From Hypholoma sublateritium FD-334 SS-4 (taxonomy: Eukaryota; Basidiomycota; Agaricomycetes; Agaricales; Strophariaceae): 64,000 nucleotides of DNA. Positions 10,901-61,276 of this stretch are shown piece by piece; positions within the stretch are counted from its first letter, which is position 1, and the number at the start of each line of letters is the position of its first letter. Where the stretch lies: the NCBI GenBank assembly GCA_000827495.1, contig KN817541.1:29805-93804 (forward strand), written 5' to 3'. Below the pieces are notes generated by a model. The model had not been told where the DNA came from and did not search any database. It saw nothing but the letters and a program-made list of their open reading frames with translations. The translations under genes were made by a program, and so were the position numbers.

Positions 10901-13900
10901 TGGGTGATTTCTGCGGCATGGTCTACGGAGGCTAGCGTGGCATGTACGAGCATATATTTTGGGTGGTAATTTATAATGAATTCGTGTAGGTAGGCTGCAT
11001 CTACATCGCACATCTATTTTCACGCTGTCTTTATTTATTTTTAAAAAACTTAACCGCTGTATCACGGGGCATTCAGGGTGCGCCGTATTTAATTGACGCT
11101 CAGTCTGGCGTACCCATTGTCATTTCAAAAACGAGAGAGATGCGTAAGTCCGTGATACCAGAACTGGTGTTAAATCTGTATATGAAATGCGAATGCATTG
11201 GTCTGAGCTGAATAAATGCCATCGCGGAGCGCGGCAACCCCTGCGAAGCCCTTTATCTCGAAAGCCGATGTTTGGACTGTAAAAAAAACGTGAATCGCCA
11301 TCGAAAGCGCAGGCTTGGATTAGGCATGCCTGCGTGCGCATTTCTGCTGTTCACGCGAACGCTACCCTGCGGTGGCTCAATCTGTAACCCGCCGCGACCC
11401 CGCGGTGCACATCCCCGCCTCGCGCCTTCCCCTGTAATTCATACAGCGAAAAATGTCGCGTTTATATGCGAATAAAGGATGAAAATATGCATTTGGGACC
11501 CCAATGTAAGTGTAGGACGGACACACCGTGAAATCAACATGAAATGCGCAGCTACGGAGCCGGCCTCGGCCGGCCGCGTGTTCGGCAGCGTCGTGCCGGA
11601 CGGCGCCACGCAAGCGCGACGTAGCGGAAGTTGAAGCGCGCCTCCAACGATCATGTCCCCCACGCTCGATCCATCCACGAATCCCGTTCATCGACCATTC
11701 GCTCCCTACTTCCAATCTCCGTTTCTGCGCGCCCAATTTTAGGCTCCAGACAGGTCTTTCAGTTGGCATACACTGCGGTGGTATTGCTGACTGGTAGATT
11801 TCTACAACACTGTGGGTGCGCACAGGAGGCATGCAGCACCCTTCGCCCACCTCGCGATCTGTCCCACTCCCCCTCAGCTCCCGCGAACGCTTCATTCCCA
11901 CCTCGTTTCCCACCGCCCTTCGCCGTCTCCACGCCGCGCAGCCCGCATCCTAGCAAGACACCCCCGGCGTGCGTCTCCGTGGGCAAGCCCTGGTAGCTTG
12001 AGCAGGAACGCTCTGCACGGCGCGCAGAGCGCAAGCACTCCTCTTGTGCGCTTCGCCTATCCCCACAATGCCGCCTCCCCCCGTCCACGCACGTTCCATT
12101 CCCGCGCCCTTCGCTCTGCGCTGCGTGTACTTCCCCGCGCATGACCATTCTGCTCCGCGCGTATTCCTGCCGTCACCCGACGCCGCACATCCTCACACGT
12201 CTCCCGATGTTCTCCTCCCGCCGCCCGCCACCGTCTACGCGTCCCCTTGCAGGCCGCACACACCCGCATGCAAGGCGCCCGGGAATGCTTCGCCAGGTCA
12301 CTCTGTTAGCCATTGCGGGGCGCGTACCGCGCGTGCGCCACGGTCAGCGGCATCGCTCACATCCGCTCTCCTCCCGTCCCCATCCCGCCTTTCGGTGCTT
12401 CTAGTCGCCGCCCACCGTCTGCGCGCTCCCGCGCAGTTCTATCAGACGGGCCATCTCTCCGGTGTGCGCTGTGCTACGCCGGGCATGGTCCGCCTATGAG
12501 CGACTGAGTCGTTGGTGTGCGCAATGACGCGGGCACGGCGCCTCATCTTCCCTTCCTGTCCCCACGGCGCGTGCGATACCTTCCAATTTTGCCCGTGCCG
12601 GGTGCCGCTGGCTACTCTAACCAAAGCGTGGAGAGGCGCCAACGCGCAGTGCGCACGCACCACGGACCGCATATGCGCACCTACCAGATCCCCGCCGCCT
12701 CGTCACTTTCTTCCGTATCACGCTGCGCCCGCGTCTGAATGCATCCACCACCCTATTCAGCACGCTCATCACCCCTATCCGCGGTTCCACGCTGTCCGCT
12801 ACTTTCGCCTTGCGTGCCCACGGTCTGCGTTCCCGTACCAGAGGTGCTCCGCACGTTCTAAATCTTCTGCGCAGACGATACGCTTGAATAGTCTGGAGCA
12901 CGGTGAGTGGGACTCAAGTGTGAGACGCAAAAATGGCACTCAGCATATTTACACTGACGAAGGTGCACGTTCGGTGTACGCTCCGAGAGGCGCCGGGAAA
13001 AAATAATTCAAAATTCAAATATTTTGGAGGATGGCGACGCGCACGACAGCGAACGTACTCAATTTCTTGGATGAACCCCGACAGCAACCAAAAGTCAACA
13101 CCAAAAGTCGGCACAACTGCGTTAGTGCCGTGCTACGGAATGTAGGATTTTTTTTCTTAATATGGCTCAGCGCCCGCCGCCCTGTAGCGCGCATGTGCTG
13201 TGAATACATATTGAGAAAGAAGATGCGTCCATAATAACACTCGGGTATAGCACGCGCACTCGCGCGGATTTCATACTAATGAAACGGGACGGGCGCTCGC
13301 CCGTGCAAGCAGCGGCGCGCCCCGCAGATACTGGATAGAATACCATCCGAGCGGATGGCGCGCATTGTCCAGAAACGAAGGTGGGCGGCGACGTAGAGGT
13401 GGCGCCGACTCCAGCGCAGACGCGGATGGGATATTGCGCAAATGTGATAGCGGGTCGTGCACACGCGCACGAGAGCACACGGCGCGCGGCAGCGCCCCGC
13501 AGACACTGCACGGTCCCGTCCGGCGGTGCGAGCCATCGCGCGGGTTAGAAAATGATTCAAGGATGTAGACTGGAAAGACTAGAATTGAACAGAATATAGG
13601 CGAGGAGGGGTAGACCGAGGCGCGCTGCGCAGTGTCCGCAGGAGGGCACGCGCGTGGACGGTGCCTTCAGAAAGTGAAATTGCAAACAAGGCGCACGCGC
13701 CACGCCGCGCGCGTACGGCGGCAGCAGCGCACTGCGCCCTGCGTGGTCACGCACACCCTCCGAGTATCGCCCAGGCGCTCCCCACTAGCTACACAGACAA
13801 ATACACACACCAAGCGGCGCCAGACGCACGCCAAACGACGCGCGTGAACAGGCAAAGAAGACGTGACTTACGCAAGCGGGCCGCGCGCCCCCGCGCCCGT

Positions 13901-14650
13901 CGTGCGGGGGCGTAGCTTGCGTCCCGCACAGTAGCACGTCCACCCACCTGTCCAGGCGGCACGTACGGCACGCTGGGTCGCGGTGCTATGATTCTATGAG
14001 GAGGGGACGAACGGCGCGCGCAGGCCGGTGCACGCGCGCATGGATGGAATTTACAGGCTACAGCGGGGCGTGCGCACGCGACCGATACGGCGCGCGAGCG
14101 CCCCGCACGCTGATTCCTCACCCCGTCCAGGCGCGCGTGGTGCGACGCGCGCGACAATTAAAACGCCTCTCGAAAAGAAAATAAAAAAGAGAAAGGAAAA
14201 AATGAGAAGCGCGCTGCACTCACGGGCGCATCTTTTGAGAAACAAATCAGGACGAGTAGTACGACAAGTTCGCAGAGAATTTGAGCTGCTTACATGTCTG
14301 GAGGGGCGGTACAAGGCTCCATGTGACGGCGGGACGGGGCGAATGGCGCGCCGCCGCCGCTGCGTAATCCATGCGTCCTAGAGAGCGGGACTCAGCGGAG
14401 GGAAAGAGCAGGATGGTGGCATTTTATCATTCACGCAGCGTGCGCGGTGCATACTAAACGTAAGCGATGGTCTGGACTGTCTTCGATACTCAACGAAAGA
14501 AAATGCCTGAGAATAATGTAGACGGGTGAATGTGGTGGACGTACCAGCGCATTGAATTCGCTATAGGTTTTATTGTTGGCGATTTTGAATAAAATGAGGC
14601 TCGTTGAGGAGCAGATAATTATACTGCACGCCAGTCATAACGTTCAGCGA
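7944..14650. other. CpG-rich gene desert
   Basis: More than 6 kb with no exon chain. Most of 8.2-14.4 kb is rich in GCGCG-type words, with blocks that are C-rich on the plus strand (about 11.8-12.9 kb) and blocks that are G-rich (about 8.7-9.4 kb). Many frames stay open by composition alone, but none shows a domain, signal peptide or plausible splicing. Short related words recur: CGCCCCGCAGATACTGG near 13317 and CGCCCCGCAGACACTGC near 13491. This suggests decayed repeats. Short AT-rich islands lie at 9435-9550 and 10950-11060. Confidence 0.5.
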
Positions 14651-14798: not shown

Positions 14799-14891
14799 CT
14801 GTTTCGGTGCACGATTAGCATCCAGTGCCCGTACTCGGACATCTACTCGCCTCACAACCCGAACAAGCGGGATCACTACACCATAATCGCC

Positions 14892-16301
14892 ATGCTCTTC
14901 TCATCCAAGGGCAGACTCGCCGCGCTACTCCTCGCAGCGTCGAGCCTGGTCGCCGTGTCAGCCGCCCCAGCGCGCGCAGGCGGCGAAGTGTACGACGTCG
15001 AAAGTTTCGAGGAGATCGCCGTCAGCGCGCCGGAGAGCGCGTTCGTCGTGCAGGAGAGCGCGTTCGGCGCGCCGGGCGTCGCGTTCGCAGAAGACGCGGA
15101 GTGGATCGAAGCAGCGCCCGCTGTATTCAACGCGGACGATTACGCCCCAGCGAACACAGCGGACGACGCCGAGAATGCGCCCGCGAATTTCTGGCGCGGC
15201 GGGTGCCGCTGCCCATGCCCGCGGCGCTGTCCGTGTCCCTGCCCGCGTCGCTTCCCCTGCCCCTGCCCATGCCCGCGCCGGTTCCCGTGCCCATGCCCCC
15301 GTCCGTGTCCGTGTCCGCGTCCGTGTCCCTGGCCGCGCCCGTGCCCCCGACCGTGCCCGTGCCCACGTCCCTGCCCACGCCCATGTCCTCGCCCGTGGTG
15401 CCCACGTCCGTGCCCGCGCCCGTGTCCACGGTGCCCCAGATGTCCTCGCTGCCCCCGTCCCCGCTGTCCTCGTTGCCCCAAATGCCCGAGATGTCCTCGT
15501 TGCCCAAAATGCCCGAGATGTCCCCGCTGCCCCAGATGTCCTCGCTGCCCCAGATGCCCAAAGTGCCCCAGATGCCCTCGTTGCCCTAGATGCCCTAGAT
15601 GCCCCAGATGTCCCAAATGTCCAAGGTGTCCCCGCTGCCCTCGCTGCCCGAGATGCCCCAAATGTCCTCGATGCCCCAAATGCCCAAAGTGTCCTCGCTG
15701 CCCCAGATGCCCTAGGTGTCCTCGTCCTCGTTGCCCCAGGTGTCCTCGCTGCCCGCGCCCACGTTGCGGACGCTGCCCTCGTCCCCGCTGCGGGCGCTGC
15801 CCCCGCCCGCGCTGCGGACGATGCCCACGTCCTCGTTGTGGACGATGCCCCCGCCCGCGCTGTGGTCGCTGCCCCCGCCCACGCTGCGGATGCGGATGCC
15901 GCCGCGGCCGTCGTTTCCCCAACGCCGTCGCGATCCAGGACGCGAGCTTCGAAGATGAGTTCGCGCTTGATCAGGCCGCGGACGTTGAAAACGCGGAGGT
16001 AGAGTTCGCTGTCGGTGAGGACGAGCAGCAGCTACTCGAATTCGAGGACGCTGCCGACGGAGTTGAGGACGTTGAGAGTGATTTTGCTGAAATAGAGGGT
16101 CGGGAGGTGAGGGATGCGGACATGGACGAGGCCATTAATATGGAGGACGTCGTGCAGGCCGCGGATGTCGCTGAGGAGGAGATCGCGCTCGAGGGCGCCG
16201 ACGTAGATGTTGATGATGTCGCGGAAGAAGGCGACGACTTCGACTTCGAAGCGTTCAACGATGTTGAGTTTGACGCTGAAGACTTCGAGGACGACTTCTA
16301 A
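14892..16301 (+). CDS. secreted Cys-Pro-Arg repeat protein with acidic flanks (469 aa)
   Basis: One uninterrupted frame of 469 residues. Residues 1-24 form a signal peptide (basic start, LAALLLAASSLVAVSA core). Residues 31-100 are acidic and Ala-rich. Residues 105-336 (15204-15899) are almost only Cys, Pro, Arg and some Lys, in three blocks: CPCPRR/CPRPCP (105-176), strict CPR/CPK triplets (177-288), and CGRCPRPR octads (289-333), ending in CGCGC. By my count there are 70 cysteines, none outside this block. Residues 340-469 are strongly Asp/Glu-rich and end in DAEDFEDDF. I know no family with this layout. A cross-linked wall or sheath protein, or a metal-binding protein, is possible. The basic repeat could pair with the acidic arms. 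A TATA box lies about 100 bp upstream. A decayed relative follows at 17.1-17.8 kb, which suggests a small lineage-specific family. Confidence 0.8.
   Translation: MLFSSKGRLAALLLAASSLVAVSAAPARAGGEVYDVESFEEIAVSAPESAFVVQESAFGAPGVAFAEDAEWIEAAPAVFNADDYAPANTADDAENAPANFWRGGCRCPCPRRCPCPCPRRFPCPCPCPRRFPCPCPRPCPCPRPCPWPRPCPRPCPCPRPCPRPCPRPWCPRPCPRPCPRCPRCPRCPRPRCPRCPKCPRCPRCPKCPRCPRCPRCPRCPRCPKCPRCPRCPRCPRCPRCPKCPRCPRCPRCPRCPKCPRCPKCPKCPRCPRCPRCPRPRCPRCPRCPRPRCGRCPRPRCGRCPRPRCGRCPRPRCGRCPRPRCGRCPRPRCGCGCRRGRRFPNAVAIQDASFEDEFALDQAADVENAEVEFAVGEDEQQLLEFEDAADGVEDVESDFAEIEGREVRDADMDEAINMEDVVQAADVAEEEIALEGADVDVDDVAEEGDDFDFEAFNDVEFDAEDFEDDF
15204..15899 (+). repeat. coding minisatellite (9-bp and 24-bp units)
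   Basis: The Cys/Pro/Arg block is encoded by repeats of the type TGYCCNMGN (9 bp) from about 15420 to 15755, and by about six 24-bp units encoding CGRCPRPR from 15756 to 15890. Third positions vary between copies, so the array is not freshly expanded, while the amino acids are conserved. The repetition keeps several other frames on both strands open. Confidence 0.85.
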
Positions 16302-18676: not shown

Positions 18677-20056
18677 TTAATCGGATACCTAATAAACTGG
18701 GGACTTTTTGGGGTAATTTCTATTCAAGTCTGTGAGTATTGATTTATATCTCACCCTTGACGTTGCTAAACGGTACTTCATCTTCCAGACCTCTACTACC
18801 TCGCCTTCCCAACCGACATCCTCCCCCTTAAATGCTTGGTCGTCACCATCTACTCAATCGAGGCAGCGCAGACGTTTATGCTCACCAACACCGCATTCAA
18901 CATGTTCGCATACGGGTACGGCGACCTCAACGCACTCAACACTATCGGTACGACATGGATATCTATTGCTGTATTCGGCGCCATCTGTGAGTCCACACAT
19001 CATAACCAGGCGTGTTCTCTTGCTCATATTTCACTCGTCGCAGCGGCATGTATTGTTCAGACGTTTTACGCGTGGAGGGTCATGATGATGTCCGGCCGGC
19101 GGCGGTTCTTCATTGTTATCACATCAGTACGTACTCACGGCGAAGAGATGGGACATGCGTGGGCTAACGGCGTCGAGTAGCTTGCGTGGATATCAATGGG
19201 CGCATCGCTGGCGTGCGGTGTCCTGATGGAGCGCGCGGTATATTTTTCGAATTTGCAGAACACGAAAATGCCAATCACTGCAGGCGTGCGTCTCCTCCAC
19301 CTTCGTCGTCTGAACCTCAGCACTAACTCACGCAGAGTAGATCTGGATGGGAAGCGGTGCAGCCTGCAACGTCGTCATCGCCGTCTCCATGACCTACTAC
19401 GTGCGTCTCTCACCCTCGCAGACCCCCTGCACGCATTCATCCCTTCCCAGCTCAAAAAGCGCGTGGGCAACGCCAAGACCACGCAAGTCGACATCGTAGC
19501 GGAGAACATCATCCGCTTCACCGTCGAGTCCGGCGCGGTCACCGCCGCCGTCTCCGTCATCCTTCTCGCCCTCGGCGTGACGTACCTCGCAAGCCGCCCG
19601 CGGTACTACCAGGCGCTCGCGACGACGCTCGTCAAGCTGTACGCGACCGCACTCATGGTGCTCCTCAACGGGCGCATGAAGCTCGGCAGCACGGCGCACC
19701 CCGCGACGTGGAACGATTCAGAGATAGACGTGGGCGACGCGCCCCGCTCGCGGCGCGGCACTGTGAGCACGGGCGTGCACGATATGAGCGCGGAGGCGTA
19801 CAGCAAGGGCGTTCGCCAGCTGCGAGACAGCGATGTCACGGCAGTGGATCCCCCGTTGCTGCCGAGCTTAGGACTGGCTGCGGAAGGGAAAAAGGGCTCG
19901 GCCAGTGCTCAGGTGCAACACACGACTCTGTCGACTAGTGGGGCATGTGCGGACGGTTCTGATGACCTCGTGGAGTCGCTTCCTCTGGAGGAGAGCCCCA
20001 GTGAGAGATCCCGCGGTGAGGAGGTGTCGAGGCCGGATTCGCCGATTCTCCCGTGA
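18677..20056 (+). CDS. DUF6534-type 7-TM protein (first exon not resolved)
   Basis: Exons join in frame. LIGYLINWGLFGVISIQV (18677-18731) connects to YLYYLAFPTDILPLKCLVV with AQTFMLTNTAFNMFAYGYG. Next come SACIVQTFYAWRVMM and LAWISMGASLACGVLMERA. IWMGSGAACNVVIAVSMTYY follows. The last exon begins LKKRVGNAKTTQVDIVAENI and contains RFTVESGAVTAAVSVILLAL and KLYATALMVLLNGR. This is the standard Agaricomycete multi-pass protein whose C-terminal half is DUF6534 (RxTVExGxLTA helix, KLYxNxxLxxLNxR ending). A long polar Ser/Glu-rich tail runs to the stop at 20054-20056. Introns are 50-60 nt. The N-terminal residues before the first helix are missing from this model. Function unknown; often described as receptor-like, without proof. 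Confidence 0.72.
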
Positions 20057-33650: not shown

Positions 33651-35131
33651 TCAACTCCACTGGATATCTGAGCCCCAAGGCAAATCAACCGGAAAGTCTC
33701 CCCAGTTGGAGAGCCGCTCTGATGATTCGATGTCTTGCCGTACCAGATCCAAGAGCCTGTCCAATCTGGCGGATGCAAGCTGGGCTTCCGATAACGGTGC
33801 ATGACACAAATCGAGCCGGCTTCGGGCTATCATCTGCTTGAGACCTGATGAGATGATATTCTCTAACTCTTTACCATGCTCCTCCCTGAAGGCGAGTAGC
33901 GCCGCTTCTGACGGTTTGGTGAGAATCGGATGTATCCTGACCGTCACTTTTTTTAAGCCTGCGAAATTTGGATCGTGGGCGAGAACTTCGTCAATTCTGG
34001 CCCAGTTTGTAGCGTGTAAAATATCTGGTCGTCGTATGTGTATCGCGAGTGTGATATACTCGAGACATGGTGATTTGACGGAAGCGAGCAGCGGTGCGAC
34101 GTGATCCAGGTGAGTATACGAGGCATTCATTGCTGGGTTTATAACAGTCAGAGAGACCAACGATACGTTCCGGTCCAAATACAGGCCTATTTGGAAGTCA
34201 GATAAGTTCAATAATTCAAACTTGAACATGGGCCAAGATACTCACCAGCTGCCGTGTCCCCTATGATGGTCAGATGCTTCAGACTCTTCCCCGCGCTCCG
34301 TAATATCTGGTTTATTACGGGAGGATTAGTCGTCCTGTCATCGAGGAAGTAACTGTCAACGGATAAATCCTCCAAGAAAGGATAGTGCTGCAGCATTCTG
34401 CATTTAGAGATTGTGGATAGACTGAGCTCGTCCAGATGTAACTTCCTCAGCATAATTGGTTGCTCATAGGGTACCGGGGTGGCCCAGTCGTGAAGCGAAA
34501 GTAGAGCACAACTGAGATTTTCGAGTGCAGGAAATAGAGAGAAAAATCGGAGGATATCCCGAGCTGGCGAGAAAGAACAATTCGATAATACCAACTTTGA
34601 TATCCGTGCGCCCTCGGACCGAAGGACATACAGGGATCGGGGCCACGAGCAGATTCCATGGAGTTCGAGAGTCTTCAAAAGAGGCAAGTACCTCATTAGC
34701 CCGAAACAGCGCTCTAGTACTTGTGCTTTCTTCGCCTTCGTTCCGCCGGGTAGATATAATGCAACTTTCAACGCGGATACAGAGTCGGGAAGGAAAGACT
34801 TGGGGGCCGCTAGTTCAGCGAAAGCCTTGTCGTACGAGTTGGTATCGTAGATATTGATGGTCGGTAACAAATGATATCGAGACGCTTTGATCCATTGACG
34901 GCACACAAGAGTGCATGCTTTGAGAGCGTCGATTTCATTGTGAAGGTAGTCGATAATCATGTCGGTGATTTCTGCGGGGAAATAAGGCCCTTGGGGCATG
35001 GCATAATCTAACGGAACGATCAGAAACTGGAGAAATTTAAATTTATCCCACATACGACGTAAATTATCTGCGTGTTTAACGCTGGTACACAGCTGAAGCC
35101 AATTAAAGACCCCATCCGGTGCGACTTTCAT
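33651..35131 (-). CDS. F-box protein with leucine-rich C-terminal region
   Basis: Two exons, 35131-34246 and 34186-33651, are joined by a 59-nt GT-AG intron (34187-34245) and give 473 residues. An F-box lies at about residues 50-95: FPAEITDMIIDYLHNEIDAL, then CTLVCRQWIKASRYHLLPTI. The rest shows irregular Leu-rich repeats (for example LPLLKTLELHGI, FPALENLSCALLSL, YPFLEDLSVDSYF, KSLKHLTIIGD). This is the usual layout of Agaricomycete F-box proteins, which are thought to be substrate adaptors of SCF ubiquitin ligases. A second in-frame Met just before the F-box (AMPQGPYFPAEI) could be the real start, which would drop about 44 residues. Partners unknown. Isolated gene; both neighbours are intergenic. 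Confidence 0.85.
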
Positions 35132-47651: not shown

Positions 47652-48794
47652 TCAGAGCTCGTTCCACTTCGCCAGCAGGTCCGCGAGAATGCGCGCGACG
47701 CTCGCCACGCCATCGCGCACCATATCGCGCTCGTCGGGGTCCTTGACGCGCACGACGTACCGCGCCTCCACGCGGTCCGGCGCCCAGCGCCGGCTCAGGT
47801 CCTTGAGGCGCGCCTTCGCCTTGTCGCGGTCGTGGTGCACGGTAAGCGGCGCGAAGATGTACTCCGCGACCGCGCCGAGCGCGAGGTCCTCGACGCGGCG
47901 CGGCGATGAGAACGAGAGCAGCGGCCACGGGAGGTCGACCCACTGCACGTGCGGGAGCGTGAGCATGTACGTCCACTGCTGGTCGTGGTACGTCATCAGG
48001 TTCGTGACGTCCTGCGCGGAGAGCGGGTGCTCGGCTTTGAAGACGACGTCGGACGATGCGGGGGCCTCTGAGGTGCTTGAGGCGCTGGACGTCGCCGAGG
48101 ATGTCGAGGTGGCAGCTGATATGGGCTCCGGGGTATCAGGACGGGCGGGGCCAGCACGGCGAGCGCGCTTGCGCTGGAGAATCGCCTCCGCGCGGCGCGC
48201 AAACTCATCTTGCTGCGCCTGCGCACGCTTCGCCCGCTCCTGGCGCTCGCGCGCCTGCTTGTCCGCCGCGCGCGCGGACTGCATGTCCGCGTACTCCGCG
48301 TTCGACAGCGCGCGCTCGGCGTACGGCTCGGGCGATGAGCACGCGCTGAGCGACGTCGCCTCCGTCGACGGGTAGGAGCTGAATCCATACGTCGCGGAGC
48401 CAGCGGAGGACGTATCGCCCGCGTCCGCGAGCACGCCGCGCAGGCTCAGCATCGCCAGACGCTCCTCGACGAGCGCCTGCGTCGGATCCCCGCTCGGGCC
48501 GGGGGCGGGCGCCGCGCGCCAGACGTCGGCGCCGCCCGTGCGCTGCGCGAGGTCGGCCTCGGCGCGCGCGATCTCCGAGGCGACCTGGGCGTCGGCGGTG
48601 GTCTGCAGGTGCAGCACGTCGCGGTTGTACTCGTGCTGGAGGCGGTAGAGGAGGTCGAGCGGCGCGGCGCCGTTGTCAGCGATCTTGCGCTGGTACGCCT
48701 CGGTGGTGTTCTGCAGCATGTCGTCGAGGTTCTGCATGATGCGGTCGCGCAGCGCGGCCTTCCACGGGGCGTCGAGCGGGGCGGCGGTGGACAT
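47652..48794 (-). CDS. conserved Agaricomycete protein with RRWxPDR motif (380 aa)
   Basis: A single exon of 380 residues with extreme GC at third positions. The N-terminal part (1-95) is helical (WKAALRDRIMQNLDDMLQNT, LLYRLQHEYNRDVLHLQTTA). The middle is Ser/Ala-rich with a charged coiled coil at about 170-215 (ADKQARERQERAKRAQAQQD, then EILQRKRARR-like). The C-terminal 110 residues (from ADQQW... through VDLPWPLLSFSSPRRVEDL, FAPLTVHHDRDKAKARLKDL and RRWAPDRVEARYV) match a widespread Agaricomycete domain whose RxWHPDRF motif resembles the end of NF-kappa-B-inhibitor-like 1 proteins. Here the His of WHPDR is replaced by Ala. Function unknown; nuclear or cytosolic. Its 5' third is the source of decayed copies at 50.3-51.4 kb. 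Confidence 0.78.
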   Translation of the reverse strand: MSTAAPLDAPWKAALRDRIMQNLDDMLQNTTEAYQRKIADNGAAPLDLLYRLQHEYNRDVLHLQTTADAQVASEIARAEADLAQRTGGADVWRAAPAPGPSGDPTQALVEERLAMLSLRGVLADAGDTSSAGSATYGFSSYPSTEATSLSACSSPEPYAERALSNAEYADMQSARAADKQARERQERAKRAQAQQDEFARRAEAILQRKRARRAGPARPDTPEPISAATSTSSATSSASSTSEAPASSDVVFKAEHPLSAQDVTNLMTYHDQQWTYMLTLPHVQWVDLPWPLLSFSSPRRVEDLALGAVAEYIFAPLTVHHDRDKAKARLKDLSRRWAPDRVEARYVVRVKDPDERDMVRDGVASVARILADLLAKWNEL

Positions 48795-51374: not shown

Positions 51375-52121
51375 TTGTGGTACGCACGGCATGCTTACAC
51401 ACTGAGTCCATGTGTTCATATACTGTCCGATGTTAAGTAAGACGCCCATCGTCTTTTTCTCCGTGCCGGTTGAGTATTCCAGTTGTGCTCGCATGATCTA
51501 GGCGGAGCTCCAGTGTGCAGTGAGATGGGGTTCAGGGTGAGCGGGGGAATTAACGCTTGGTTGAAAACTGCGGTCTGTGGAGAGGGAAAAAATGTGGGGC
51601 GCTGTGCATCGTGCTATGGGAGAAACGAGTACATGGATTCGACACCAGCCTGGTACGGTGTCTATATGCATAATGATTTGAGGCGGTCTACACGCCCTCG
51701 ACGCTTGGACGCATAAACAGTCGAAAAAAAGCAGAGCTTCTAGTGCAAGCCAGAATAAAGCAGATTATCGATGGCTATATCTGATAACAAAGCGATGTGG
51801 AAGGACGCTGCACCACTTGGCTCGCCGAGCGTGCGCGCTGCGGACCCGTGTGAACCGTGCATGACAGCAACAATTGGTGGGTCTTTGTGTAATCACAAGC
51901 CCGTTTAGAGCAACTTTAGGTTATTCAAGGTCCTCGCCTGGACCGAGCAGGCGTCCAGCTACTCCGAACGGGGAACCCCCAAGCGCCCACTGGCGGCGCT
52001 TCTAGGGCGCCCGCTAGTGCGGCAGCAGGCGAACAGCGCTTAGCGGCGTCACGTGCNGTGCTTCTGATGGAAGAGATATCGCCGGGGTATAAGAAGCGTG
52101 GACGGGCAACGAGCCCGGCAA
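51375..52121. other. spacer upstream of FAD monooxygenase 1
   Basis: No gene supported. A TATA-like TATAAGAAG occurs at about 52089, some 33 bp before the ATG at 52122. Confidence 0.4.
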
Positions 52122-54001
52122 ATGTCCGCCCCCCTCTCCTTCATCGTCGTCGGCGCCGGCATCGGAGGTGCGTCCGTCGCTGTGCCCGCTGCGCCCGCTG
52201 ACCCCCGCAGGCCTCGCCACNGCCGCCGCGCTCTGCCGCGCCGGCCACGCCGTCCTCGTGCTCGAGCAGAGCACAGGCACCACCAAAGTGCGCCCCCCGC
52301 CCCCGCCCCCGCTGACCGCGCTGACCCCCCGCAGAGCAAGGGCGGCATCCAGTGCGTCCCCCCTCCCCCCNTGCCCACACCNGCTCACCCNNCNCAGGTC
52401 CCCGCCGAACATGACCCGCCTCCTCCTCAAGTGGGGNCTCGCCCCCGCGCTCGCGCAGCGCGCGCACAAGTGCGACCGCTTCATCTTCACCAACGGCGCG
52501 ACGGGCGCGCCGATCGGCTTCCTGCGCATGGGCGAGGAGTTCATGCGCGACCTCGCCGCGGACTTCCTCTTCCTGCAGCACCAGGACCTGTACGACATGC
52601 TCCGCGCGCTCGCCGTCGAGGCCGGCGCGGCGCTGCGCTTCGGCGCGCGCGTCGTCGACGCGNNNNNNNNNNNNNNNNNGGGGCGCGTGACGCTCGCGGG
52701 CGGCGAGGTGCTCAGCGCGGACATCGTCGTCGCCGCGGACGGGTTCGACAGCGCCCTGCGCGCGGCGGTCACCGAGGACGCCGACGCCCCGCCCGACGCC
52801 GCCGACGCGCACGTCGTCGCCACGTTCCAGGTCCCCATGGCGGCCATCCGCGCGGACCCCGCGCTCGCCGCGCTCTGCGCCCCCCGCGACGTGCGTCCCC
52901 CCCCCCTCCCTCTGGTGGCTGAGCGCTCACGTCTCCATGGCAGTGGCACATCTGGCTCGGCGCCGGGTACATCATGAACACGAACGTCCTCGCGGGCGAG
53001 GAGGCGTTCACCGCGACCATCATCCACGACTTCGCCGGCCCGCGCACGCCGCACGACGCCGACTGGGCCGAGGGCCGCACGCTCGCGGACCTCGGTATCG
53101 AGCTGAAGAACTTTGAGCCCGTGTGCGTACCCCCCATTGTCTTTTGCGATGCCCCTCCCATTGTCCCCCCATGCACTGTGCTACGCTCGGGCGCCGACGG
53201 CCCCAGCTTCCTTTTGCCCACGCGCGCGCGACCCTGCACGCTCCTTATCGCCCACTCAGCTGCTGATATATTTACCCCCCGCCACAGGCCGCGCAAGGTC
53301 CTCGAGCTGGCGACGACCGTCGCCTCGCGCGTCTTCGTTCGCCGGCCCGTGCCGGAGGACTTCGTCTCCGCGAGCTCGCGCGCCGTGCTCGTCGGCGAGG
53401 CCGCGCACCCCATGCTCGTGCGTCCCCCCATAACCCCCATGCACACCGCCCAACTAATAACTAACCAACAACCAACACCCACCCACAGCCGGCCTCGAAC
53501 CACGGCATCGCCCTCGTCCTCGAAGACGCGCACACCCTCGGCGCCCTCTTCGCGCACCACCGCGCCGCGCGCGGGCGCGCGCGCCCCGCGCAGCTCCTCA
53601 CCGCATACGACGACCTCCGGCGCGAGCACGCCGCGCACGTGCACCTCTACGACACCACGCAGCGCGCGTCCATGCGCCTCTCGCCCTCGCCGTCCCCCGC
53701 GACCCTCGCGCGCGACGCGGTGCTGCGGCAGACGATGCTGAGCGGCGAGTGGGATCGGATGGACGACTCGCGCGCGTTCCGCGCGGTGTGGGGGACGGAG
53801 CTGGCGCTGTGGGCGCATGATGCGGGGGAGCGCGCGGAGGGGTGGTGGGGGATGTATGGGGCGAGTCTTGGTGGGGGGTACGGCGGTGGGGGCGGGGCGT
53901 ATGAAAATGGGAGCGGGGAGGAGGGCGCTGGGGGGCGCGGCGCGGAGGGGCGGCGGTCGATGGAGGTGAGGGTGGTGCGCGGGGGCGTGCAGGTCTCGTG
54001 A
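52122..54001 (+). CDS. FAD-dependent monooxygenase (salicylate hydroxylase/UbiH-like), copy 1
   Basis: Exons from the ATG at 52122 encode a group A flavin monooxygenase. The dinucleotide-binding start is FIVVGAGIGGLATAAALCRA, split by intron 1. VLVLEQSTGTTK with KGGIQ follows, then PPNMTRLLLKWGLA. The middle has FLFLQHQDLYDMLRALAVEA and VVAADGFDSALRAAV (DG motif). The FAD ribityl-binding segment is SRAVLVGEAAHPML, continuing after an intron into NHGIALVLEDAHTLGALF. A Gly-rich tail ends at 54001. Such enzymes hydroxylate aromatic or polyketide substrates using NAD(P)H and O2. Several Ns interrupt it, including a 17-base gap at 52663-52679 inside an exon, so about six residues are unknown. Introns are short and extremely C-rich. 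It is a paralogue of the gene at 59181; together they suggest aromatic catabolism or secondary metabolism, but no biosynthetic core gene is present. Confidence 0.82.
52663..52679. other. assembly gap (17 N)
   Basis: A run of N inside an exon of FAD monooxygenase 1. Further single Ns lie at 52056, 52221, 52371, 52382, 52391-52394 and 52437, all within very GC-rich sequence that is difficult to sequence. Confidence 0.95.
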
Positions 54002-59180: not shown

Positions 59181-61276
59181 ATGGCATACCACATATCGCC
59201 GGCTCCCGAGCTCCCCAGAGCCACCTGCGCGCTCAAATTTGCTATCGCTGGCGGCGGCATCGCAGGTGGGTCTCGCGCGATTCATACGCGCACACGTGGA
59301 CGCTGACGGCTGGGTGCTTCCAGGGCTCGCTGCGGCGTGCGCGCTCAAACTGGCTGGCCACGATGTTGTTGGGGTAGTAGAAAGATCGGACGGAACGTTC
59401 CAGGTGCGTCTCGCGTTCATTCTCTGAGTGGGTTATAACTGACGCTGTGCGCGCGTGTAGAGCCGCGGTGGAATTCAGTGAGTGGCTCACCCTGGCGCCG
59501 AACGCGGAGTGAAATTTGATTTATACATCGACGCAGATCCACGCCGGGCATGACCCGCACCCTCCTGCGCTGGGGCTTCGCTCCCGAGCTGCAGCAACAC
59601 GCTCACAAATGCGGCGTGCTCGTCTTCCGAAACGGTACGCGTCCGAATTTCTTGACCGCGTGGGCGCGGTATACTCACGCCCTCCAGGACTATCCGATGA
59701 CTTAATCGGGCGCCTGAAAATCGATCAAGATTTCCTCGGCGACATCCTCACTGAGTTCCTTTTTATACAAGTGCGTGTTTCCTTCTCGCCCCATGAACGC
59801 TGCCTCGAGTGTAGAATTAAACTGTGTTTGCCACTCAGCACCAAGACCTCCACAACATCCTGCGTGCGCGTCTCGACGCCGAGGGCGTGCCACTCCTCTA
59901 CAACACCTCTGTCGACGATGTCACGATATCCGCCGAGGGCGCGACGCTCGCGCTGAGCACGGGCCAGACGCTCGACGCAGATATCGTCATCGCCGCCGAC
60001 GGGTGGAATAGCGCACTGCGCGAGCGCGTCGTACCTGACGCGCCGGCACTCCAGGTCGTGACGGAAGAGCAAGTCACCGCGCCTGCATCACCGGAGCACG
60101 TCCTCCACCTGATGTTTACGGTACCCACGGAGAAGCTTGCGGAGGACGCCGAACTACGTTTCTTAACTAACCGGGCGCTGGTGGGTGTTCTTATTATTCA
60201 CCAGCGTTTCACGCACCATGCACCCCTCCTAATGCCCGTCCTCTGTACAGTGGCCCATGTGGATGGGCCAAGGCTTCGCAATAAATATGAACATCACAGT
60301 GCGTACTCTGATGCGTTTGCTGCATTGACGCACCATAAACTAATTCACCATCCTACTGCAGACGGACGGCACAGCGCTCACTGCGACACTCACGTACGAC
60401 TGGGACGGTGAGATACTCGCGGAAGATGAAGAGTACGTGGAACGGCCACTTGCGTACTTCCAGCTCGACTTGGAAAAGTTTTGTCCGACGTGAGCCCGCT
60501 TCCAATCATTCTCGACCACTCACCAACCCCCGCTAATACCTATCCAGACTTTGTCGCCTCCTCTCCATCGTCGACACCGTCTCCGCACGTGTGGTCACCA
60601 ACCGGCCCGTCGCCGAGGACGTGGTCTGCGCAGACTCACGCATTGTGCTCGCCGGGGACGCCGCGCACCCCCTCCTGGTACGTACCTCATCTCCTTCACC
60701 AGGTACCCAACTAACCACAATTACACTACATCAAACACCACCACACCCCGACCCACCCACAGCCTGCACGCCCCTCCCTCGCAATCGAGGACGCTGAAAC
60801 GCTGCGCGCGATCTTCGCACGCATGACCAAGCCCGCAGAGCGGCCCCGCTTCCTCAACGCGTACGAGGAGCTGCGCCAGCCGTACTGCGAAGGCGTCGTC
60901 GCATACGATCGCGCCTTCCACCAGCTCGTGCGCACGGAGCCGGGGGCCTCGATGGACGAGCGCGACGAGATGTTACGCGCATCGATGGCGCATGGGGGGT
61001 GGGAACACATCGACGAGGCGGCATTCCGCGCTGGGTGGGAAACCGAGCTACGCATGTATACGTTCGACGCCATGGAGCATGTTGACAGCCACTGGACGCA
61101 TTGGGGGCGGTATATGAAGGGAGAGGCAGGTGTGGTGAAGAGGGGGAAGCGTAGGGGCGCTTCGCAGCAATTTTTCTCAGGCTTCACGAAGGTGCGTGTC
61201 TATCATTGCTGTCTAATTCTCTGGCTCACTCGGTCTTTGGCAGTCTTTTACCAGACTCCCGCCTACTTATTCATAG
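59181..61276 (+). CDS. FAD-dependent monooxygenase (salicylate hydroxylase/UbiH-like), copy 2
   Basis: Around ten exons. The ATG at 59181 begins MAYHISPAPELPRATCALKF; the FAD-binding AIAGGGIAGLAAACALKLAG is split by intron 1. SRGGIQ and STPGMTRTLLRWGFAPELQQ follow. DFLGDILTEFLFIQ joins HQDLHNILRARLDAEGVPLL. IVIAADGWNSALRERV holds the DG motif. Then WPMWMGQGFAINMNIT and SRIVLAGDAAHPLL, the GD motif that binds the FAD ribityl chain. The next exon reads PARPSLAIEDAETLRAIFAR. The last exon is short (61244-61276) and ends RLPPTYS. Splice sites are GT-AG throughout and frames match copy 1 at the same places, so the two are paralogues. Activity should be hydroxylation of an aromatic ring with NAD(P)H, but the substrate cannot be read. 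Its codon use is less GC-extreme than copy 1. Confidence 0.85.

Follow-up and report, generated by a model that had tools for sequence, protein, structure and literature searches.

Gene C24 and its predicted protein

C24 lies on the plus strand of the 64-kb stretch of Hypholoma sublateritium DNA analysed here (the window), where it has a coding sequence for 469 amino acids (14892..16301) with no apparent intron that aligns over its full length with an uninterrupted paralogue, C153a. The protein begins with a putative signal peptide (residues 1-25, 14892..14966, cleavage site approximate), which was recognised by eye from its hydrophobic core and the sequence VSA/AP. It resembles the signals of the paralogues in an alignment of seven loci, with 21 of 25 residues identical in C153a. 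A secretion signal, as in the original prediction, is supported by eye. On the assumption of a 25-residue signal peptide, made for all charge counts, the remainder consists of an acidic N-arm (residues 26-101, net charge -15; 14967..15194), a basic Cys-Pro-Arg/Lys block (residues 102-341, +75; 15195..15914) and an acidic C-arm (residues 342-469, -50; 15915..16298). The proposed acidic-basic-acidic polyampholyte is therefore borne out. At the C-terminus is the motif EAFNDVEFDAEDFEDDF (16248..16298), the counterparts of which in C153a and C16b are similar in an alignment of four C-arms and have no independent search support.

The basic block holds all 70 cysteines, the first being residue 105 and the last residue 336. 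They are spaced mostly every third residue, as the original prediction had it: 38 of the 69 gaps are of 3 residues, with 11 of 2, 9 of 5, 8 of 4 and 3 of 6. The described progression of the repeat is also found, from CPCP/CPRP through 29 strict CPR/CPK triplets (15465..15725) to five CGRCPRPR octads (15765..15884), in which the amino acids are identical and the codons varied.

Because long overlapping frames are open over C24 on both strands, the openness of its frame is by itself no proof of coding. In the triplet array, with its 29 units of nine bases, columns 1, 2, 4 and 5 (the first two bases of the Cys and Pro codons) are invariant, while different bases occur at third positions. From one unit to the next, 50 codon changes are synonymous and 12 are non-synonymous, all 12 exchanging R and K. 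Synonymous/non-synonymous counts for the same comparison are 2/60 and 1/56 when the two other plus frames are read, and 2/60, 25/32 (the next best frame) and 6/56 for the minus frames. Thus, the C24 protein is under selection, and we infer that selection on the protein has maintained an old array. It had been allowed that the repeat might turn out to be non-coding or be read in another frame; with the proposed frame alone strongly synonymous, both a non-coding repeat and an antisense gene were rejected, and the frame can be taken as real.

AlphaFold2 gave no fold for C24 (mean pLDDT 35.4, too low to serve for a fold search), which counts in favour of the disordered chain proposed below, though weakly, since the alignment comprised only two sequences. 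Scans of the 64-kb window for tRNAs and Rfam families gave no match.

A family of at least seven loci in the H. sublateritium genome

Searches of the genome (46.1 Mb, 281 contigs) for relatives of C24 returned C153a and C16d first and then C153b, C153c, C16b and C16c, and C16a was spotted among the frames beside C16b. At least seven loci (C24, C153a, C153b, C153c, C16a, C16b and C16c) have a related signal peptide and acidic N-arm, and C16d is a decayed eighth copy. Used as a query, the C153a N-arm matches at least seven loci, itself and six others, the six at E-values from 4.3e-16 to 1.8e-6 (C24 4.3e-16, C16b 7.6e-9, C16a 1.1e-6), and C16d is absent from the matches. M1, A16, Y34, D35 and W71 (C24 numbering) are invariant in the alignment of the seven loci, the last three within the N-arm. 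The sequence WRGG at the start of the basic block is common to C24, C153a, C16a and C16d. Because a search of the genome with full-length C16a matched only C16a itself, this member joins the family through its N-arm alone. Similarly, the C24 C-arm matched only itself and the decayed C16d; as this search misses the other members, the likeness between the C-arms of C24, C153a, C153c and C16b rests on alignments and shared acidity.

C153a (439 amino acids) is 58% identical to C24, with 26 of 67 aligned residues identical in the N-arm and 49 of 123 in the C-arm, and with the repeats rebuilt. Where dN/dS is computable for the arms, it is about 0.4-0.6 (C24 versus C153a, N-arm 0.50/0.85; C16b versus C16c, N-arm 0.10/0.25 and C-arm 0.18/0.43), dS being saturated for the C24-C153a C-arm and for the whole basic block.

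Several loci have features of their own. C16c, a close relative of C16b, has a frame change inside the basic repeat (L020 from 2527), from either an assembly error or pseudogene formation. C153b (L017 1485-2270) stops shortly past its basic part, in which acidic inserts separate three Cys-Gly modules; RR closes each module and is followed by FGADNSP (twice) or LASVAV, which places C153b among the members closest to a Kex2-processed layout. The neighbourhoods of C24 and C16d have dispersed or rearranged repeats in common: a GC-rich stretch upstream of C24 (window 13236-13543) is 73% alike to G000:C16:530911-531230 downstream of C16d, with a shorter match (76%, 124 bases) upstream of C16d (L007 1312-1435), and parts of window 13875-14144 recur on both sides of C16d. 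An extra fragment of Cys-Pro repeat DNA (L007 5930-6206), about 69% alike to the C24 repeat, lies approximately 2 kb past the end of C16d.

The basic repeats are interchangeable

The basic block ranges from 144 to 356 residues across the family and is built from different repeats. In C24, these are CPR/CPK; in C153a, CPPCRR and then CPRCRK hexads; in C153b, modules of CGGCGRR and CCRPRCGG, separated by acidic inserts; in C153c, CCRRRCGG and then CRPRP/CHRPRP; in C16b, and in C16c as far as it was read, PKRPTPKRP followed by Gly/Lys-rich sequence; and in C16a, RGGGGGW followed by RRPRTPRR. Four of the six uninterrupted members have 40-70 cysteines in the basic block, and C16a and C16b have none. 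Cysteine is therefore not a residue conserved across the family in the manner of metallothioneins, and its density is a trait of some members, not of the family. The original prediction had centred on thiols arrayed along a polyproline-like rod; the Cys-free basic blocks of C16a and C16b and the Gly-rich repeats of C153b do not support this as the core idea.

Charge is balanced in five of six uninterrupted members

The mature net charge per residue is +0.023 in C24, +0.010, +0.030, -0.007 and -0.039 in four other members, and +0.278 in C16a. Thus, whole-chain charge is within 0.04 of zero in five of the six uninterrupted members, with C16a as the exception, while the basic blocks of those five carry net charges of +23 to +112. 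C16d (frame interrupted) was left out of the charge table and C16c (frameshifted) entered with its N-terminal part only, and neither is in the five- and six-member counts. K+R and D+E in the mature chains amount to 78/68 in C24, 76/72 in C153a, 33/26 in C153b, 113/117 in C153c and 44/56 in C16b, compared to an unbalanced 152/21 in C16a. For the five members, K+R and D+E correlate with r = 0.96 and 2 of the 120 possible pairings balance as well or better, the members being paralogues and therefore not independent, and C16a having been set apart only after its charge was seen. Adding C16a removes the significance: 48 of 720 pairings then balance equally well or better (r = 0.10).

The three blocks carry -15/+75/-50 in C24 and -16/+74/-54 in C153a, though about 60% of the aligned arm residues differ. 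In C153c, whose basic block (+112) is the largest among the five, the N-arm has been expanded by its own acidic repeats to -65. C153b lacks a C-arm and owes its balance solely to the acidic inserts within its basic part. Charge segregation is greater than in all 200 shuffles in five of the six uninterrupted members and in C16a equals the shuffle maximum to three decimals; for the partial C16c frame it is 0.078, not above the shuffle maximum of 0.081. In addition to its unbalanced charge, C16a has a weak acidic C-arm (-5) and neither of the promoter elements described below, and it may be decaying or specialised. In the other five of the six uninterrupted members, charge is what the family keeps.

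Promoter elements at fixed spacing

A TATA box, TATATAAC, lies 101 bases before the ATG of C24 (14791..14798, plus strand), and the element TCGGACA follows 44 bases past the start of this box (14835..14841, plus strand). TATAWW is present at -85 to -101 at six of the eight family loci, and was found at -130 to -80 for 5.9% of 20,000 random positions in the window. TCGGACA lies 42-44 bases after TATAWW at five of the eight loci (C24, C153a, C153c, C16b and C16c), and 0.245% of 20,000 positions drawn at random from the window had it at -80 to -20. In C153b, the TATA box occurs without TCGGACA, and C16a and C16d have neither at those places, C16d having a TATAWW at -150. These elements are present through shared descent, and their survival beside diverged flanks suggests that they may be in use.

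Searches for homologues and known families

A search with C24 of 5.77 billion proteins, in which 7992 candidates were scored, gave one match (E 4.6e-4), which, by its sequence and listed Pfam domains, is an aspartic protease that carries a short insert of the CPKC type. The C153a N-arm gave 711 candidates in the protein database and none at an E-value up to 10. As a control, a neighbouring gene (47652-48794) gave 10 matches at E up to 1e-10, with 94, 93 and 88% identity for the top three, followed by Pholiota molesta at 53% and then by other agarics. Close relatives are therefore present in the database, the two closest only as contigs of about 2 kb, so that absence of the family from them is not proven. 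Thus, the homologues of C24 are paralogues within its own genome, and none was found outside it in a search that has poor sensitivity for such low-complexity sequence.

Pfam had no match for C24 at E up to 10, nor, at E up to 1, for any of five paralogues, in support of the original suggestion that the protein fits no described family. A search of NCBIfam with five proteins gave a single match, to C24, at 36 bits against a cut-off of 1700. Among solved structures, 11 sequences matched C24 and three matched C153a at E up to 1. The best match to C24, 8zxl (E 1.9e-23), was dismissed because the alignment covers a single residue, and the two C153a alignments that were inspected follow repeat composition. 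Among the titles and abstract openings listed by literature searches, none describes such a family.

A tentative model for the C24 family

Based on the data reported here, we tentatively suggest that the C24 family consists of secreted, probably disordered and electroneutral polyampholytes with an acid-base-acid triblock layout that condense outside the cell and, in the Cys-containing members, are cured by disulphides. We consider this reading plausible, though short of probable. Its grounds in this analysis are the selection on the C24 frame, the existence of the family, the charge blocks, the near-neutrality of five of six members, the interchange of repeats and the promoter elements at five of eight loci. 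In this model, the basic block of one chain would, after secretion, pair with the acidic arms of its own and of other chains, and the paired chains would condense into a dense phase on the surface of the hypha or within the extracellular matrix. Disulphides formed by oxidation would then lock the material in C24 and other Cys-rich members. The repeat sequence could vary provided that Pro or Gly keep it extended, that Arg/Lys are dense and that acidic residues balance it. We favor condensation because, in the available parts of two published studies, near-neutral polyampholytes are governed by attraction (PMC7503639) and charge patterning tunes the coacervation of oppositely charged chains (PMC5668414); that a triblock on one chain might condense with itself is our extrapolation from this work. 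At least in C16b, the arms are not obviously removed by Kex2, because every [KR]R in this protein precedes Pro. In sandcastle-worm cement and other coacervate adhesives, opposite charges also condense. There, the charges are carried on different proteins, while in the C24 family they are on one chain.

A broader and rather unlikely extension of the condensation model is that selection keeps the charge ledger and not the sequence. The cationic block would be rebuilt from unrelated repeats (CPR, CPRCRK, CRPRP, CGGCGRR, PKRPT), of which some carry as many as 70 thiols and one carries none, and the acidic segments would resize to match, yielding self-condensing extracellular materials of graded cross-linkability. 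If the favoured model is right, one genome would provide a natural experiment that combines a common signal-and-acid scaffold with different cationic repeats, and comparison between members could reveal what thiols, Pro, Gly, Arg and Lys each contribute to charge-driven assembly (or killing). Evolutionary constraint would then be seen to act on overall charge rather than on residues, and the family would also be a source of ready-made triblock polymers.

Charge balance fits equally well with the main rival explanation, which we regard as unlikely, namely that these proteins are charge-masked precursors of cationic antimicrobials. The acidic arms would neutralise an Arg/Pro/Cys-rich polycation while it is being secreted and be cut off outside the cell, releasing a variable, toxic basic domain. 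Precursors of this kind would be expected to have related signal peptides, a cationic domain that varies greatly and a near-neutral whole, as here, and acidic segments balance the cationic segment in five members, a balance that is lost once C16a is counted. C24 has five cleavable dibasic sites (after residues 112, 120, 130, 338 and 341), and these lie near the edges of the block, either among its 29 opening residues or at the end. However, C16b has no cleavable dibasic site (a [KR]R without a following Pro), and C153a has 19, many of them inside repeats; as a consequence, there is no consistent processing plan. Moreover, usual antimicrobial peptides are far shorter than basic blocks of 144-356 residues. 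In the available parts of the sources, an anionic prosegment has been proposed for alpha-defensins (PMC3308943), and for frog precursors a hypothesis of balanced net charge, although the charge correlation in the latter is weak, holds in two of three species and is absent from the pooled data (PMC7073735). As described in these texts, the alpha-defensin and frog-skin precursors resemble the C24 family in having a secretion signal, acidic and cationic segments, and charge compensation (PMC3308943, PMC7073735). The C24 family differs in that it mostly has acidic arms on both sides and in that its long basic block consists of simple repeats.

A related comparison is to the KEX2-processed repeat proteins (KEPs) of agaricomycetes, which, as presented in the part of the source available to us, are like C24 in being secreted by agarics and in having a signal peptide and repeats (PMC9769878). 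Cutting C24 in silico at [KR]R not before P yields two short related pieces (8 and 10 amino acids) from between RR sites, and there are more such pieces in C153a, C153b and C153c. By contrast to KEPs, the 29-triplet array and the octads of C24 are without a dibasic site, the main repeats staying in one piece of 208 amino acids, and C16b is without any cleavable site.

Dense cysteine could itself be the primary function, for disulphide cross-linking or metal binding. All 29 array cysteines of C24 are kept while synonymous sites vary, and 40-70 cysteines per basic block in four of six members point in the same direction. But C16a and C16b share the N-arm (E 1.1e-6 and 7.6e-9) and have no cysteine in the block; because the basic domains differ in this way, thiol chemistry cannot be the core function of the whole family, and we consider this explanation improbable. 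The thiol-first idea of the original prediction thus fails for the family but may describe C24, and disulphide cross-linking is plausible in the members with cysteine. ODF1, Drosophila Mst(3)CGP, SPRR and keratin-associated proteins likewise combine dense Cys with Pro or Gly, in disulphide-cured structural material, and we liken C24 to these Cys-X-Pro proteins. To our knowledge, they have no acidic arms and no secretion signal.

We give still less weight to a secreted effector or surface decoy, directed against a plant, bacterium or competitor and with repeats that diversify in an arms race. Several copies are clustered on two contigs, repeats turn over between paralogues and some copies have decayed, all of which would fit; however, there is no known host, and within C24 the repeats are conserved in amino acid rather than diversifying. 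The model for such a protein is Rsp3 of Ustilago maydis, which is secreted and repetitive with a Cys-rich part (PMC5923269). Unlike C24, Rsp3 has separate QP-rich, Cys-rich and repeat regions, and the available part of the article does not mention an acid-base-acid balance (PMC5923269). Finally, functionless low-complexity sequence kept open by its composition would account for the several overlapping frames open across the repeat and for the decayed or interrupted copies, but is highly improbable given that change in the array is largely synonymous, that loci share promoter elements at fixed spacing and that dN is lower than dS in the arms where both are computable.

Other genes in the window

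By eye, frames at 52014-53741 and 59824-60411 look like FAD monooxygenases, and two of these frames contain unknown bases; Pfam gave no match for 52974-53741 and weak FAD-binding matches below the cut-off for 59824-60411. A weak F-box-like match, also below the cut-off, was found at 34208-35131 and none at 33651-34229. The frame at 19196-20056 has a DUF6534 match above the cut-off.
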